Shown piece by piece: positions 1-40,710 of a DNA stretch of 64,000 nucleotides. The notes beneath the pieces were generated by a model. The model was not told the DNA's origin. It ran no database searches and saw only the letters and a program-made list of their open reading frames with translations. The position numbers and the translations under genes were made by a program. The stretch covers positions 1 to 64,000 of the forward strand of contig NZ_PHNT01000014.1 in the NCBI RefSeq assembly GCF_002834145.1, written 5' to 3'. The number at the start of each line of letters is the position of its first letter. The stretch's first letter is position 1. This DNA comes from Roseovarius salinarum (GTDB lineage Bacteria > Pseudomonadota > Alphaproteobacteria > Rhodobacterales > Rhodobacteraceae).

Positions 1-236
1 GCCGCGCGGCCAGCGGGCGCGGCGGCCCGGGGTTCGGGCGCATCGCCGGCGGAGGCGGACCGGCGCGTGCCTTCGGGCCGCGGCGCCTGTGCGCGGGCCC
101 TGAGCGTCTCGGCCGGCAGGAGCGCGGGATAGTCGGCGTCAGACGTGCTCGCGTCCGTCTCGAAGGCGGCCGGCGGGCTGCATGCCGCGGCCAGCGCGGA
201 TGTCAGAAGGAGCAGCAGAGAGGCCTTGGCGCGCAT
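1..236 (-). CDS. Lipoprotein, N-terminal part (gene runs off the left edge)
   Basis: The reverse strand opens with an ATG at 236 and stays open to base 1, giving 78 residues of an incomplete protein. It starts MRAKASLLLLLTSALAAAC, a typical lipoprotein signal peptide with lipobox LAAC and the lipidated Cys at about residue 19. The rest is rich in Ala, Pro and acidic residues with no recognisable domain. It is divergent from the TetR gene, with the 20-bp palindrome at 319-338 between them, so it may be a target of that regulator. Function unknown. The signal peptide is clear; the true C-terminus lies outside the window. Confidence 0.7.
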   Translation of the reverse strand, partial: MRAKASLLLLLTSALAAACSPPAAFETDASTSDADYPALLPAETLRARAQAPRPEGTRRSASAGDAPEPRAAAPAGRA

Positions 237-2091: not shown

Positions 2092-3036
2092 ATGAAAATC
2101 GGGTTCATCGGGCTGGGAAATGTCGGCGGCAAGCTGGCCGGCAGCCTTTTGCGCAACGGCATGGATCTTGTGGTGCATGACCTCGACGAGGGGCGCGTGG
2201 CCGCCTTCACGGCGCATGGTGCCGCGGCGGGGGGCGACCCGGCGCAGATGATGCGTGCTTGCGACGCGGTCATCACCTGCCTGCCCAGCCCCGAGGCGAG
2301 CGCGGCGGCGCTGGCCGCGATGCTGCCCGAGGTGGGGCCGGGCAAGATCTGGATGGAGATGTCCACCACCGATGCCGAGGAAGTGAAACGGCTGGGCCAA
2401 CAGGTGATCGCGGCCGGCGGCGCGTCGGTGGACTGCCCGGTGTCCGGCGGCTGCCACCGGGCGGACACCGGCAACATCAGCATCTTCGCCGGCTGCGACC
2501 GTGCCACATTCGAGCGCGTGCTGCCGCTGCTGACGGTCATGGGCCGGCGGGTGCTGCACACCGGCGCACTGGGCAGTGCGAGCGTGCTCAAGGTGCTGAC
2601 GAACTACCTGGCCACGGCGAATCTGGTTGCCTGCGCGGAGGCGCTTACGGTGGCCAAGGGCGCGGGCATGGACCTGGCCACCGCCTTCGAGGCGATCCGG
2701 ATCTCGTCCGGCAATTCCTTCGTGCACGAAACCGAAAGCCAGGTGATCCTGAACGGCAGCCGCGACATCTCTTTCACGATGGATCTGGTGGCCAAGGACA
2801 TCGGGCTGTTCCAGCGGACCGCGGAGGGGGCCGGCGTGCCGCTGGAACTCAACCCGCTTCTGATCGGTATCCTCGAGGACGGCATCGCCCGCTACGGGCC
2901 GCGCGAATTCTCGCCCAACATCATCCGGCGGCTCGAGGAGGCGACGGGCCTTGACGTTACCGCGCCAGGCTTTCCCGCCGAGATGACCGACGACGAGCCC
3001 GAGGCACCGGGCGGCGAGGTTCACCCGCGTACGTGA
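2092..3036 (+). CDS. NAD(P)-dependent oxidoreductase of the 3-hydroxyisobutyrate dehydrogenase family
   Basis: 314 aa. The ATG at 2092 follows the ribosome site GGAGGAAC and begins MKIGFIGLGNVGGKLAGSLL, the Rossmann GxGxxG motif of beta-hydroxyacid dehydrogenases. The substrate segment VDCPVSGGCHRADTGNISIFAG (around 120-140) and the region near ALGSASVLKVLTNYLATANL, containing the catalytic Lys (K in VLKVLTN), fit the family. Members oxidise 3-hydroxyisobutyrate, tartronate semialdehyde or related beta-hydroxyacids; the substrate here cannot be told. Divergent from pirin; a small membrane protein follows 59 bp downstream. Confidence 0.88.
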   Translation: MKIGFIGLGNVGGKLAGSLLRNGMDLVVHDLDEGRVAAFTAHGAAAGGDPAQMMRACDAVITCLPSPEASAAALAAMLPEVGPGKIWMEMSTTDAEEVKRLGQQVIAAGGASVDCPVSGGCHRADTGNISIFAGCDRATFERVLPLLTVMGRRVLHTGALGSASVLKVLTNYLATANLVACAEALTVAKGAGMDLATAFEAIRISSGNSFVHETESQVILNGSRDISFTMDLVAKDIGLFQRTAEGAGVPLELNPLLIGILEDGIARYGPREFSPNIIRRLEEATGLDVTAPGFPAEMTDDEPEAPGGEVHPRT

Positions 3037-16458: not shown

Positions 16459-16576
16459 GCAACAACGGTGAGGAATGTCTAGGGAAAACAGGGTAAACGG
16501 GTGAACGAATCAGCGAATCACGCTAGTGAGTCGGTTTAATCGATTCGCCCGACCGCCCAGAGTTGAGGAGACCTTC

Positions 16577-18577
<2,001 letters not shown>

Positions 18578-18597: not shown

Positions 18598-18611
18598 TTG
18601 ACTTTCGTCAA
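18598..18611 (+). promoter_or_regulatory. FNR/CRP-family box upstream of ubiT
   Basis: TTGACTTTCGTCAA is a perfect TTGAC-N4-GTCAA palindrome, one base per arm from the FNR consensus TTGAT-N4-ATCAA and identical to boxes read by Dnr/Nnr-type relatives. It is centred 42.5 bp before the ubiT ATG. Because ubiTUV works without oxygen, FNR-type activation fits. If it activates at -41.5, the transcript would be almost leaderless. Confidence 0.65.
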
Positions 18612-18646
18612 TCGCCGGCTGCGCCCCGCTTGCTAGGCGGGGGGGC

Positions 18647-19174
18647 ATGACAGATGTCCCCACTCACGACAGCGGCGGGGCGCACGCGGCGACGGGCTGG
18701 GCGCCGCCCCTGCCGCTGTTCCTGCTGCAGCCCGTATTGGCCCGCGTGGTCAGGCGGGTGGCCAGCCGATACCCCGAGCTTCTCGAACGTCTTGGCCCGG
18801 TCCGGGGCGCGCGCTTCCTGATCGATCCGCGCGGCCTGCCGTTTACCCTGCTGCTGAAGCCCGACCCGGACGCCCTGCTGCTGCGGGCCTGCCCGCGGGG
18901 GCGGCCGCCCGCGCATGATGCGCTGATCGCGGGACGGTTCCTGGATCTGCTGGAACTGGTGGACGCGGCCGAGGACGGCGACGCGCTGTTCTTCTCGCGC
19001 GAGCTGACCATCACCGGCGACACCGAGGCCGTGGTCACCCTGCGCAACGCGCTCGACAACGTGGAAGGTTCGGTCGCGGCGACGGTGGCCGGGATGTTCG
19101 GCCCCCCGGGGCGTGCCGCGCTTGCGGCCCTGCGCCGCGCCGCCCGGCGTGGCACCCCGGAGGCGCAGCCATGA
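18647..19174 (+). CDS. ubiT: Ubiquinone anaerobic biosynthesis accessory factor UbiT (SCP2 domain)
   Basis: 175 aa with an SCP2 lipid-binding domain (about residues 35-145: [38 protein letters not shown]). UbiT binds prenylphenol intermediates and is required for ubiquinone synthesis when O2 is absent. Identity rests on domain plus its ATGA overlap with ubiU and the ubiV gene behind. An FNR-type box precedes it. Ribosome site GCGGGGGG overlaps the expected transcript start. Confidence 0.88.
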
Positions 19175-20169
19175 TCCGCCCCGAGCTTGTCTGCCCCGCC
19201 GGCACGCCAGCGGGCCTGCGCACCGCCGTGGAGGCGGGGGCGGACACGGTCTATTGCGGGTTCCAGAACGCCACCAACGCGCGCAATTTCCCCGGGCTGA
19301 ACTTCACGCCGCAGGAGATGGAACGCGCCGTGGGTCACGCCCACGACCGCGGCACCAAGGTGCTGCTGGCGCTCAACACCTTCCCGCCGGCGGGCAAGTT
19401 CGACCTGTGGCGCGACGCGGCCGCACTGGGCGCGGAAATGGGGGTGGACGCCTTCATCGTGGCCGACATCGGCGTGGCCGATCACATCGCGCGCGAACAC
19501 CCCGGCGCGCGGTTGCACCTGTCCGTGCAGGCCGCGGCCTCAAGCCCCGAGGCGATCCGGTACTACTGCCGTGAATTCGGGGTGAAGCGTGTCGTGCTGC
19601 CGCGTATCCTGACGGTGCCCGAGATCGAGGCGCTGGCGGCCGAGATCCCGTGCGAGATCGAGACCTTCATCTTCGGCAACCACGGCCTGATGGTCGAGGG
19701 ACGTTGCAGCCTGACGAACTACGTCACGGGGCTGTCCACGAACATGGACGGGGTGTGTTCGCCGGCGGCGGACGTGCACTACGACCGCGATACCGAGGGC
19801 ACCATGACCACACGGCTGCGCGACGTGACCATCGACCGCTTCGGCTGCGCAGAGACGGCCGGCTACCCCACGATCTGCAAGGGCCGCTACCACGCGCCGC
19901 ACCGCGAGGACGGCTATTACGCCTTCGAGGAACCCGTGAGCCTGAACCTCGCCAAGCTGCTGCCGAGCCTGATGGGCGCCGGCGTGCACGCCTTCAAGAT
20001 CGAGGGACGGCAACGCTCGCGTGCCTACGTGCGCAAGGTGGTGGGCGCGTTCCGCCGGGCCGTGGACGACGTGATGGCCGGCGAGACTCCCGCGCTGGAC
20101 GACCTCGTGGCGCTGACCGAAGGGCGGAAGCAGACCGAAGGCGCCTTCAAGACGAAGAAATGGCGGTGA
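19171..20169 (+). CDS. ubiU: Ubiquinone anaerobic hydroxylation protein UbiU (U32 peptidase family)
   Basis: 332 aa, U32 family. UbiU with UbiV forms a 4Fe-4S heterodimer that hydroxylates ubiquinone precursors without O2. Cys179, Cys196 and Cys236 match three of the four known cluster ligands (C-X16-C, then X39-C). The fourth expected Cys, seven residues before C179, is Gly172 in FGNHGLMVEGRC; an extra Cys226 in DRFGCAETAGY may replace it. ELVCPAGTPAGLRTAVEAGA is the family N-terminus. Overlaps ubiT by 4 nt. Function in oxygen-free ubiquinone synthesis is from family knowledge. Confidence 0.88.
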   Translation: MIRPELVCPAGTPAGLRTAVEAGADTVYCGFQNATNARNFPGLNFTPQEMERAVGHAHDRGTKVLLALNTFPPAGKFDLWRDAAALGAEMGVDAFIVADIGVADHIAREHPGARLHLSVQAAASSPEAIRYYCREFGVKRVVLPRILTVPEIEALAAEIPCEIETFIFGNHGLMVEGRCSLTNYVTGLSTNMDGVCSPAADVHYDRDTEGTMTTRLRDVTIDRFGCAETAGYPTICKGRYHAPHREDGYYAFEEPVSLNLAKLLPSLMGAGVHAFKIEGRQRSRAYVRKVVGAFRRAVDDVMAGETPALDDLVALTEGRKQTEGAFKTKKWR

Positions 20170-20174
20170 AATCC

Positions 20175-21083
20175 ATGAGCCGGAAACTGACGCTCGGCCC
20201 AATTCCCTTCCACTGGCCGGCCGAGACCAAGCGAGATTTCTATGCCCGCATCGCCGACGAGGCGCCGGTCGACGAGGTTTACCTGGGCGAGGTGATCTGC
20301 TCCAAGCGCGCGCCGTTCTTCGAGAGGGCGTACGCCGCTGTCGCCGATCGTCTGGAACGCGGCGGCAAGCGCGTGATCCTGTCCTCGCTCAGCGAGGTTA
20401 TGACGAAACGTGAACGCCAGATGATGGCGGGACTGTGCGAGGTCGACGACCGCGAGATCGAGATCAACAACAATTCGGGGTTGTTGCACGTGTCGGGGCG
20501 GACGCACCGCATCGGCCCGATGATGAACGTCTACAACGAACGCACGCTTGCCGTGCTGCACGTCCGTGGCGCAACGCATTTCGCCCTGCCGGTCGAGATG
20601 CCGGGCCACGCGGTCGCGCGCATCGGCCAAGCAGCCGCCGCGGCCGGCGCGGGTCTGGAGGTGCAGGTCTTCGGTCGCGCGTCGCTGGCCGTCTCGGCGC
20701 GCTGTTACCACGCGCGCGCCCACGGTCGGACGAAGGACAACTGCCAGTTCGTCTGCGAGGACGACCCCGACGGCATGCCGCTGACCACGCTCGCGGGCGA
20801 ACCGTTCCTGCGGATCAACGGCATCCAGACGCTGTCACAGTCCTGCGTCAACCTGCTGGGGGATCTGGACGATGTCGCGGCCAGCGGCGTCACGCACTAC
20901 CGCCTTGTCCCCCAGGACACGGACATGCTTGCCGTGGTGGGGGTTTTCCGCGACGTCCTCGACGGCCGGGCCACCGGCGCCGAGGGCGCCGCGCGCATGG
21001 ACGCGCTGGACATCGCCGCGCCGTTCTCCAACGGCTTCTGGCACGCGCGCCCGGGCGCGCACCACGTCAGGACGGCGCGCTGA
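20175..21083 (+). CDS. ubiV: Ubiquinone anaerobic hydroxylation protein UbiV (U32 peptidase family)
   Basis: 302 aa. Partner of UbiU. Four cysteines in the order and spacing of the UbiV cluster: C42 (LGEVICSKR), C177, C190 and C194 (ARCYHA...DNCQFVC, C-X12-C-X3-C). GPIPFHWPAET opens the TIM-barrel domain. I chose ATG 20175 (MSRKLTLGP), six bases past the ubiU stop; an ATG at 20160 overlapping ubiU is the alternative. Third gene of ubiTUV; convergent with the dodecin gene, with 19 bp between stops. Confidence 0.88.
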   Translation: MSRKLTLGPIPFHWPAETKRDFYARIADEAPVDEVYLGEVICSKRAPFFERAYAAVADRLERGGKRVILSSLSEVMTKRERQMMAGLCEVDDREIEINNNSGLLHVSGRTHRIGPMMNVYNERTLAVLHVRGATHFALPVEMPGHAVARIGQAAAAAGAGLEVQVFGRASLAVSARCYHARAHGRTKDNCQFVCEDDPDGMPLTTLAGEPFLRINGIQTLSQSCVNLLGDLDDVAASGVTHYRLVPQDTDMLAVVGVFRDVLDGRATGAEGAARMDALDIAAPFSNGFWHARPGAHHVRTAR

Positions 21084-39173: not shown

Positions 39174-39187
39174 TTGATCGCGGTCAA
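39174..39187 (+). promoter_or_regulatory. FNR box upstream of the CBS-domain gene
   Basis: TTGATCGCGGTCAA matches TTGAT-N4-ATCAA except one base. Centre 39180.5; a CATTAT -10-like hexamer at 39211-39216 puts the start near 39222, i.e. the box at about -41.5, the class II activator position. FNR-type control of the CBS gene follows. Confidence 0.6.
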
Positions 39188-39252: not shown

Positions 39253-39732
39253 ATGAACCATGTCGTGCCAGCCGGGTCGGGACATCGACAGGCGCAAGGA
39301 CAAGGGGTTTTTTCGGTGCGTGTTTCGCAGATCATGACGCCCGAACCGTTGAGCGTATCGCTTGCCACCCCGGTCAGCGTGGTTGCGGGTGCCATGCGCG
39401 ACGGGGGCGTGGGGGCCTTGCCGGTGATCGACGGCGGGCGCCTGGTGGGCATGGTCACGGACCGGGATGTCACGGTGCGGTGGGTGCCCGAGGCACCATC
39501 GGCGGCACGCGTTCCCGTCGAAACGGTGATGACCGTGGGCATGCGGCATTGCATCGTCGACCAGACGGTCGAGGCGGCCGCGGCGATCATGGGCGACAAC
39601 CAGCTTCGGCGGCTGCCGGTGCTTGATCGGGCGGGGTGCTTTGTCGGCATGGTGTCTCTGGGCGATATCGCCGAGCATGCCAGCGAAAGGCTTGCCGGCG
39701 AAGCCTTGGGCGAGATCGTCGAACGGCGTTAG
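39253..39732 (+). CDS. CBS domain protein
   Basis: 159 aa, two CBS repeats: VSQIMTPEPLSVSLATPVSV...LPVIDGGRLVGMVTDRDV and VETVMTVGMRHCIVDQTVEA...LPVLDRAGCFVGMVSLGDIAEH. CBS pairs bind adenine nucleotides and modulate other proteins. ATG at 39253 has a good AAAAGGG ribosome site; a GTG at 39316 would shorten the N-terminus. Convergent with the Crp/Fnr gene. FNR box 66 bp upstream. Confidence 0.86.
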   Translation: MNHVVPAGSGHRQAQGQGVFSVRVSQIMTPEPLSVSLATPVSVVAGAMRDGGVGALPVIDGGRLVGMVTDRDVTVRWVPEAPSAARVPVETVMTVGMRHCIVDQTVEAAAAIMGDNQLRRLPVLDRAGCFVGMVSLGDIAEHASERLAGEALGEIVERR

Positions 39733-39749: not shown

Positions 39750-40562
39750 TCAGCCGCAGGCGGCCCGGCGCCGCTGTTCGGGCGTGGTGGGCGTGGTCGG
39801 TTCGGCCGTCGCGCCGGTGATCGTGCGCGACAACTGCGCGAGATCGACCTGCGAGATCCGAGCCAGGCCCTGCGGGTTGCGCAAACGAATATCCATGTGA
39901 TCCCGGGTCGCGATCAGCCCGTCGCGTTCGAACCGGCGCAGCGTGCGGCACACGTGCACGGACGACAGCCCGGTGAATTCGCCAAGTCGCTGTTGGGTGA
40001 GCGGCAAGTGGAATTCGCTGTCCCGGTCCGAGGGCAGCATGCCCAGACGCAAGCCGAATTCCAGCAGCGCGTAGGCGATGCGCACCGCCGCGCTGCCACG
40101 CCCCAGTCGCAGCAGCCTCTCGCTGAACCTTGCGTGTGCCCTGTCCGCGCGCCGGGCCTGCAACGCGATGAAGTCCTCCGATACGCTGCGCAGCCTGCGC
40201 AACGCGCGCCTGTCGAAAACGGCAACGGTCGCATCACTCAGCGTCTCGACCTCGACAAGGGCGATGCTGCCGTCGGCGGAAGCCGTGAACGCGATGTCGC
40301 CGGGCAGGCAGATGTCGATGATCTGCGTTTCCCCGTTCTCCAGCGTCTTGGACTGGGCGATCCAGCCATCGAGCACGCACAGCACGGGGCAGGCGGAATC
40401 GCCTTCGCGAACGATCTCCGCGCCCGCCTCGAAATGCCGGGCATGGCCGGCGATCGCGCTGACGAGCGGATCATGCGCGCTGATATCCTCTTGCCCGAGA
40501 AAGCGCGCGGTGAAACGCAATATCCCCGGCCCTTTCTCCGGTTGGGTCCTTGTCGGTGCCAT
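39750..40562 (-). CDS. Crp/Fnr family transcriptional regulator without N-terminal iron-sulfur cysteines
   Basis: 270 aa. Cyclic-nucleotide-like sensor domain: AEIVREGDSACPVLCVLDGW, QIIDICLPGDIAF, then the long dimer helix, and the HTH (LTQQRLGEFTGLSSVHVCRTLRRFERDGL). No Cys cluster of FNR type is present near the N-terminus, so it does not bind 4Fe-4S. MAPTRTQPEKG is chosen for its AAGGGGGGG ribosome site. An FNR box sits about 135 bp before the start. Ligand unknown; related proteins respond to nitric oxide or other signals. Confidence 0.88.
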   Translation of the reverse strand: MAPTRTQPEKGPGILRFTARFLGQEDISAHDPLVSAIAGHARHFEAGAEIVREGDSACPVLCVLDGWIAQSKTLENGETQIIDICLPGDIAFTASADGSIALVEVETLSDATVAVFDRRALRRLRSVSEDFIALQARRADRAHARFSERLLRLGRGSAAVRIAYALLEFGLRLGMLPSDRDSEFHLPLTQQRLGEFTGLSSVHVCRTLRRFERDGLIATRDHMDIRLRNPQGLARISQVDLAQLSRTITGATAEPTTPTTPEQRRRAACG

Positions 40563-40696
40563 TTCCCCCCCCTTGAAGAATGGGCGTCCGAAATGTCTTG
40601 GCGTGAATACCTGCAGTCCGTCCGGGCTCCTATATCCCGGCACGGGCATCATCGACAGTGTATCATGATGATATTGCTGCCGTGCCGGCGGGAGAT

Positions 40697-40710
40697 TTGA
40701 TCCAGATCAA
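40697..40710 (-). promoter_or_regulatory. Perfect FNR box upstream of the Crp/Fnr regulator
   Basis: TTGATCCAGATCAA is an exact TTGAT-N4-ATCAA. On the reverse strand a TATCAT -10 hexamer (40673-40668) gives a start near 40661, with the box centre (40703.5) at about -42. So the regulator is most likely activated by FNR under low oxygen. Confidence 0.7.

Follow-up and report, generated by a model that had tools for sequence, protein, structure and literature searches.

A predicted FnrL-activated ubiTUV operon in Roseovarius salinarum, with promoter spacing consistent with a leaderless ubiT mRNA and a UbiU that lacks one reported cluster cysteine

We consider it probable that the ubiTUV genes of Roseovarius salinarum constitute an operon that FnrL activates and that serves to make ubiquinone without oxygen, which is, taken as a whole, the best explanation of the sequence data presented here. 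Two features of this operon appear to be new, namely a conserved promoter spacing that points to a leaderless ubiT mRNA and a UbiU protein without the equivalent of E. coli C169; the control of ubiTUV by FNR has already been published. The original prediction for this DNA concerned ubiTUV behind an FNR-type box, and both the missing UbiU cysteine and a promoter spacing common to hemN go beyond it.

The ubiTUV genes and the samples of relatives

The window, that is, the whole stretch of 64,000 nucleotides that was analysed, carries three overlapping genes on the forward strand that had been read as ubiT, ubiU and ubiV. This reading was confirmed, with UbiT and UbiV scoring above their NCBIfam cut-offs and UbiU 1.7 bits below. 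The first gene, ubiT (18647-19174), codes for an SCP2-domain accessory factor of 175 aa (PF02036; NF047962, 70.4 bits, cut-off 46.9). A later ubiT start was considered and rejected: before the conserved region, the sole in-frame start found was the ATG at 18647. The second gene (19171-20169) overlaps ubiT by 4 bases and codes for a U32-family protein of 332 aa (PF01136) without an equivalent of E. coli C169, which we name UbiU-like because its score of 438.3 bits lies below the NF047963 cut-off of 440. With the same model, five other UbiU proteins of the lineage called type A below scored 454-459 bits, two of type B 503-504 and that of E. coli 559.9. The gene stands together with ubiT and ubiV in an order that is kept in relatives, and the R. 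salinarum genome holds one ubiT match and one UbiU match. The third gene, ubiV, codes for another U32-family protein (NF047965, 353.2 bits, cut-off 275); it ends at 21083 and starts at 20160 or, alternatively, at 20175. The start at 20160 gives a 10-base overlap with ubiU, and the alignment of many relatives begins at that residue. All four cluster cysteines are present in UbiV: Cys 47, 182, 195 and 199 are invariant in 82/82 type A sequences of at least 280 aa (shorter ones were excluded), R. salinarum UbiV included. His 18, 116 and 140 of UbiV are near-specific to type A (79, 76 and 80 of the 82) and rare in type B.

Relatives were drawn from several samples, and all counts across loci or genomes are raw, kinship being ignored. 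The family survey covered 295 genomes, nearly all one per genus, and ubiT was found in 59 of them at 60 loci, with a single ubiT in 58 of the 59. The loci belong to two lineages. Type A UbiU proteins (33 loci) are 73-80% identical to that of R. salinarum and type B proteins (27 loci) 52-56%; one genome, G252, carries both types. A GTDB named set consisted of the best 80 of 199 confirmed relatives, all type A. Because the family and GTDB sets may share organisms, the 113 type A loci do not amount to 113 independent organisms. A class-wide UbiU sample comprised 40 of the 385 genomes matched at 1e-80 (39 excluding R. salinarum), and a quick UbiU tree was built from 101 sequences (34 of the 113 type A, the 27 of type B, the 39 class-wide ones and E. 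coli), the cluster-site columns being excluded.

An FNR-type operator and a predicted -10 precede ubiT

An FNR/FnrL-type operator, TTGACTTTCGTCAA, occupies positions 18598-18611 on the forward strand; the window has no other exact TTGAC-N4-GTCAA. Its centre at 18604.5 lies 42.5 bp from the A of the ubiT ATG (18647), which is where the perfect palindrome had originally been placed. The exact pattern occurs at 11 sites in the 3.4 Mb genome vs 0 for a reversed control pattern, and the window contains 3 copies of the degenerate form TTGAY-N4-RTCAA vs 0.07 expected from shuffles; these comparisons rule out a chance origin of the box. With the box above chance and FnrL in the genome (470.5 bits, cut-off 300; the gene adjoins hemN and lies near ccoN on the same contig), the predicted FNR-type control of ubiTUV also holds up as a sequence-based proposal. 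The genome codes for six strong matches to Crp/Fnr-type proteins (nine above cut-off), so a Dnr-like protein may act at the box, either in place of FnrL or alongside it.

Downstream of the box, a predicted extended -10 (TG-C-TAGGCG, 18631-18639, forward strand) has its TA 22 bp past the box. The box/-10 spacing and the conserved ATG distance described below together point to a transcription start at 18646-18647 on the same strand, which would give a leader of 0-1 nt; with a start at 18646 the box would take the class II position (-41.5). Judged by spacing, the arrangement of class II FNR promoters, in which the box lies near -41.5 and the -10 is in register with it, is found here and in relatives. 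Among the 11 exact boxes of the genome, a TA at 21-23 bp and an ATG at 40-43 bp occur together only at ubiT.

Elsewhere in the window, a gene for a Crp/Fnr-type regulator (39753-40652, reverse strand) is preceded by a perfect TTGAT-N4-ATCAA (40697-40710), 51.5 bp from its ATG; the product is FixK-like and below the model cut-off. A perfect TTGAY-N4-RTCAA is also found at 39174-39187, upstream of an ORF (39253-39732) that, by eye, probably codes for a CBS-pair protein.

The distance from box to ATG is conserved in type A loci

For each ubiT locus we took the best-scoring box with at least 9/10 matches to TTGAY-N4-RTCAA within 300 bp upstream, ties going to the most upstream. By this measure, 44/113 type A and 25/27 type B loci have a box, and the TA of a -10 lies 21-23 bp past it in 42/44 and 25/25, respectively. 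In 41 of the 44 type A box loci an in-frame ATG stands 40.5 (9 loci), 41.5 (21) or 42.5 bp (11) from the box centre. Three loci depart from this spacing: L024 has its ATG at 61.5 bp, L183 has two boxes with the ATG 58.5 bp from the first one, and L219 additionally carries a second perfect box, at 40.5 bp from an ATG. ATG accounts for 41 of the 43 in-frame codons at the 40.5-42.5 bp position in type A vs 11/1017 elsewhere at less than 100 bp. In type B, an ATG at that position is found in 1/25 box loci (L052), against 41/44 in type A (Fisher p 3e-14, kinship ignored), and 11 of the 25 type B box loci are without any in-frame ATG at 38-100 bp. The extended -10 motif TGnTA was found in 28/41 of the predicted leaderless type A loci vs 0/440 shifted windows, and in 5/25 type B loci vs 3/250. 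Leaderless mRNAs of Bradyrhizobium have been reported with this motif in front of them (PMC4842269); it is not specific to leaderless genes, since the same paper also places it before 2560 start sites.

Because the ATG sits where class II transcription should begin, the predicted 5' end of the ubiT RNA is the A of the AUG or the base preceding it, and the conserved ATG provides the AUG start codon expected of a leaderless mRNA. Thus, a leaderless ubiT mRNA in type A box loci is supported by the conserved spacing, which bears out, as a prediction, what had been proposed for R. salinarum. The accompanying remark that this is an uncommon design is right in general and wrong within the organism's own lineage, where the design is the rule if the box is present. 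Type B ubiTUV keeps the box and the -10, with predicted leaders in most loci.

It is unlikely that ubiT is instead expressed mainly from an mRNA with a leader, made by rpoD read-through or from a dominant upstream promoter, with the box repressing or tuning expression. The gap between rpoD (16526-18577, forward strand) and ubiT is only 69 bp, neither a terminator nor a consensus sigma-70 promoter was found in it, and the G-rich stretch immediately upstream of the ubiT ATG could be a weak ribosome site if transcription began upstream, for instance by rpoD read-through. However, rpoD is the upstream neighbour in just 14 of the 44 type A box loci (R. salinarum and 13 others), whereas 41 of the 44 keep the ATG distance and 42 the position of the TA. 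A further argument against a leader comes from hemN, which has the same design and is a known FnrL target in some relatives (see below). We favour the leaderless reading.

At one other site (L003:1501-1514; G000:C5:78068) a single box lies between divergent long ORFs, with ATGs at 70.5 bp and 41.5 bp. It is a possible further leaderless case, though without a TA at 21-23 bp.

hemN shares the box, spacer and ATG spacing

A family-wide search for the pattern box-22-TA-9..11-ATG gave matches in 154/295 genomes and 2 control matches (as read from the table), the control being the reversed pattern, which tests base composition only. Thirty of the loci were translated: 12 were hemN (by eye), 16 were frames of less than 100 aa that look mostly like chance, and 2 were other long frames. 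hemN matches were obtained in 80/100 genomes, and the 30 best-scoring loci, which include R. salinarum hemN, all have a perfect box with an ATG at 42.5 bp (22 loci) or 43.5 bp (8). The R. salinarum hemN box is of the degenerate form and lies outside the 11 exact sites. Past the spacer, hemN mostly has TAA, and TGnTA was present in 0/29 of the loci found by script. The FnrL-type hemN promoter of the Rhodobacterales therefore resembles that of ubiT in its box, the spacer of about 22 bp, the -10 and the ATG spacing, but is without TGnTA. FnrL is reported to target hemN in Dinoroseobacter and R. sphaeroides (PMC4263372, PMC5398030), whereas in Rhodobacter capsulatus hemN is reported not to be a direct target (PMC4634722). 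FNR-box genes do not share this design in general: in R. salinarum the boxes of ccoN are at distances of 100.5 and 132.5 bp, and only ubiT fits among the 11 exact boxes. If true, a conserved leaderless design on genes for oxygen-independent heme and ubiquinone synthesis would suggest a translational feature common to the Rhodobacterales anaerobic switch.

Type A loci without the box often carry an NsrR-like regulator

We then compared the type A loci with and without the box. An Rrf2-family gene was detected by tblastn in 43/69 no-box loci vs 0/44 box loci (Fisher p 4e-13), presence being counted anywhere in the locus, at any position and on either strand, with many loci short. In L228, the one locus analysed in full, the Rrf2 gene is divergent and its best model is NsrR (112.3 bits, cut-off 182). 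Between it and ubiT lie genes for a YtfE/DnrN-like di-iron protein (below cut-offs), a DUF2478 protein and 5-formyltetrahydrofolate cyclo-ligase, and parts of this gene set recur in many other no-box loci. An FNR box farther upstream, before locus position 3000, was mostly not found in the 48 named no-box type A loci, one of which has a perfect box (L242) and five a 9/10 site. In the UbiU tree, 14 of 16 no-box loci fall on one branch (SH-aLRT 93), L020 and L036 standing apart. There is a derived type A subgroup without the box, often with a predicted NsrR-like regulator and putative NO-repair genes nearby. By eye, a GGTA...TACC-like repeat precedes the Rrf2 gene in many no-box loci.

UbiU lacks one of four reported cluster ligands

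The [4Fe-4S] cluster ligands reported for E. coli UbiU are C169, C176, C193 and C232 (CX6CX16CX38C; PMC6747719). Three of the four are found in the R. salinarum protein, as Cys179 (codon 19705-19707; E. coli C176), Cys196 (19756-19758; C193) and Cys236 (19876-19878; C232), all on the forward strand. Gly172 stands in place of C169, within Asn170-His171-Gly172 (19678-19686, forward strand). The C169 site is Gly in 113/113 type A sequences, inside an invariant Asn-His-Gly, and Cys in 27/27 of type B; the class-wide sample (39 without R. salinarum) has Cys in 33 and Gly in 6. Over 179 UbiU sequences, mostly near relatives, the site holds Cys (60) or Gly (119) and nothing else, while C176, C193 and C232 are each kept in 179/179. 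In the UbiU tree, type A groups with the sequences L264-L266 on a single branch (SH-aLRT 100), and 4 changes are required at the C169 site; the placement of the long branches of E. coli, L291 and L300 is uncertain. The four cysteines have been called strictly conserved, and the C169A/C176A pair is reported with about half the iron of the complex; the same paper describes an in vivo assay of C176A, and C169A in combination with C176A (PMC6747719). Since the C169 site varies between Cys and Gly while the other three positions are invariant, three cysteines may suffice, with one iron open. We infer that the R. salinarum UbiU cluster is held by Cys179, Cys196 and Cys236, and that the fourth iron is either open or has His171 as its ligand.

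It is possible, though in our view somewhat doubtful, that the cluster still has four protein ligands, with His171 or the lineage-specific Cys161 (codon 19651-19653, forward strand; V158 in E. coli) taking the role of C169. Both residues are invariant in type A (113/113), and Cys161 is also present in the three sister sequences L264-L266. However, two of these, L265 and L266, have Ile at the His171 site, and the separate Gly sequences L274, L291 and L300 are without both residues, L274 having a Cys one residue on. In the structure prediction, strand 162-172 begins right after Cys161 and has Gly172 at its far end; the two residues are accordingly expected to be well separated, with pLDDT below 50 around the cluster. 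Because pLDDT is below 50 at 171-203 and 228-245, the model carries no information on the cluster itself; its best Foldseek match is the U32 structure 5D88 (E 3e-8, TM 0.43), and a PDB sequence search gave no match at E 0.01. Cys226 ('FGC') was also considered as a substitute ligand and rejected, being found in 23/113 relatives only. Very improbable, to our mind, is a loss of hydroxylase activity or a switch to another reaction. Although R. salinarum UbiU lacks a reported ligand and scores just below the UbiU cut-off, its operon is intact with UbiT and UbiV, the 73-81% identical relatives share many invariant residues with it, and the five other type A UbiU proteins scored are all above the cut-off. 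In addition, ubiT is linked with NosZ across genomes (see below) and is usually the sole copy.

For U32 enzymes, how oxygen is inserted into carbon without O2, and the role and ligands of the cluster, are described as unsettled in a review (PMC11574389). A natural set of UbiU proteins with Gly for one reported ligand makes the four-cysteine model testable; if Gly-type UbiU proteins work, that model must change, an open catalytic iron being the leading idea. We tentatively put forward a joint reading, to which we give rather less than even confidence. The UbiU cluster would be a natural three-Cys, site-differentiated [4Fe-4S] cluster whose open iron binds prephenate (the oxygen donor) or the quinone precursor, as in IspH/aconitase, and C169 would be optional, because the 179 sequences show Cys or Gly only. 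In these same bacteria FnrL would drive, via leaderless mRNAs, the genes that replace oxygen-dependent steps of heme (hemN) and ubiquinone (ubiT) synthesis, and one subgroup would later have shifted ubiTUV to NsrR-like, nitric-oxide-linked control.

Comparison with known systems

FNR activation of the ubiTUV genes has been published for E. coli (PMC10470549), and FNR sites before ubiTUV for 1362/1566 triplets (PMC11707229). The FNR-regulated ubiTUV genes of Pseudomonadota described in the latter paper have the same FNR-type site before the first gene and lie on one strand, as here; the words 'leaderless', 'cysteine' and 'NsrR' are absent from its main text, figures and supplements aside. The E. 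coli system (PMC6747719, PMC10470549) has the same three homologues, the four UbiV cysteines and FNR control, but its UbiU has C169, and its ubiT and ubiUV are divergent, whereas R. salinarum has a single ubiT-U-V operon with the leader predicted to be absent. In the related genus Rhodobacter, the acuR-acuI-dddL operon of R. sphaeroides likewise has a leaderless first gene, acuR, mapped experimentally there and predicted here; its regulator is a TetR-type repressor, in contrast to the FNR activator at ubiT (PMC3017554). We found no mention of leaderless ubiT or hemN, UbiU without C169 or NsrR-linked ubiTUV in open-licence literature text, a scope outside which figures, supplements and subscription papers fall.

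Proposed mechanism and respiratory setting

In the mechanism that we propose, FnrL would activate the ubiT promoter, class II by its spacing, when O2 is absent. Ribosomes would read the leaderless ubiT AUG directly, and ubiU and ubiV would be translated by coupling over the overlapping stop/start codons. If the pathway is as in E. coli, UbiT would handle a quinone precursor that UbiU-UbiV hydroxylate without O2, and the ubiquinone would feed the reduction of nitrite, NO and N2O.

The genome codes for a NirS-type cytochrome d1 nitrite reductase (PF02239), NirJ and NosZ (1118.9 bits). A NosR-like protein scores 831 bits, below the cut-off of 1000, and a norB-like COX1 protein is encoded next to one that resembles COX3 and NorE. 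Because these proteins are present, denitrification is predicted from nitrite onward, and respiration from nitrite to N2 is likely in R. salinarum. There are four molybdopterin oxidoreductase matches: two are formate-dehydrogenase-like, one is DmsA/PhsA-like with a DmsC-like anchor, and one is a 725-aa frame on contig C3, which by its length may be NuoG. NapA/NarG was not the best model for any of the first three, which were the ones tested, and no DorA/TorA-type DMSO reductase was seen in the genome. Of the two kinds of anaerobic respiration that the original prediction had given as examples, denitrification is thus retained from nitrite onward, with the nitrate step unsupported; DMSO respiration keeps a candidate in the DmsA/PhsA-like protein with its anchor and lacks a DorA/TorA-type enzyme.

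NosZ was found in 73/295 family genomes at 1e-100 (72 above cut-off). It occurs in 39 of the 59 genomes with ubiT vs 34 of the 236 without (Fisher p 1.6e-14, kinship ignored); by group, the counts are 9/12 for type A with the box, 10/21 for type A without it and 20/26 for type B. G278, the sole other genome of the genus searched, has neither ubiT nor NosZ. In three relatives (G070:C8, G244:C60 and G010:C6), a single contig carries both ubiT and nosZ, at a distance of about 5-13 kb from each other.
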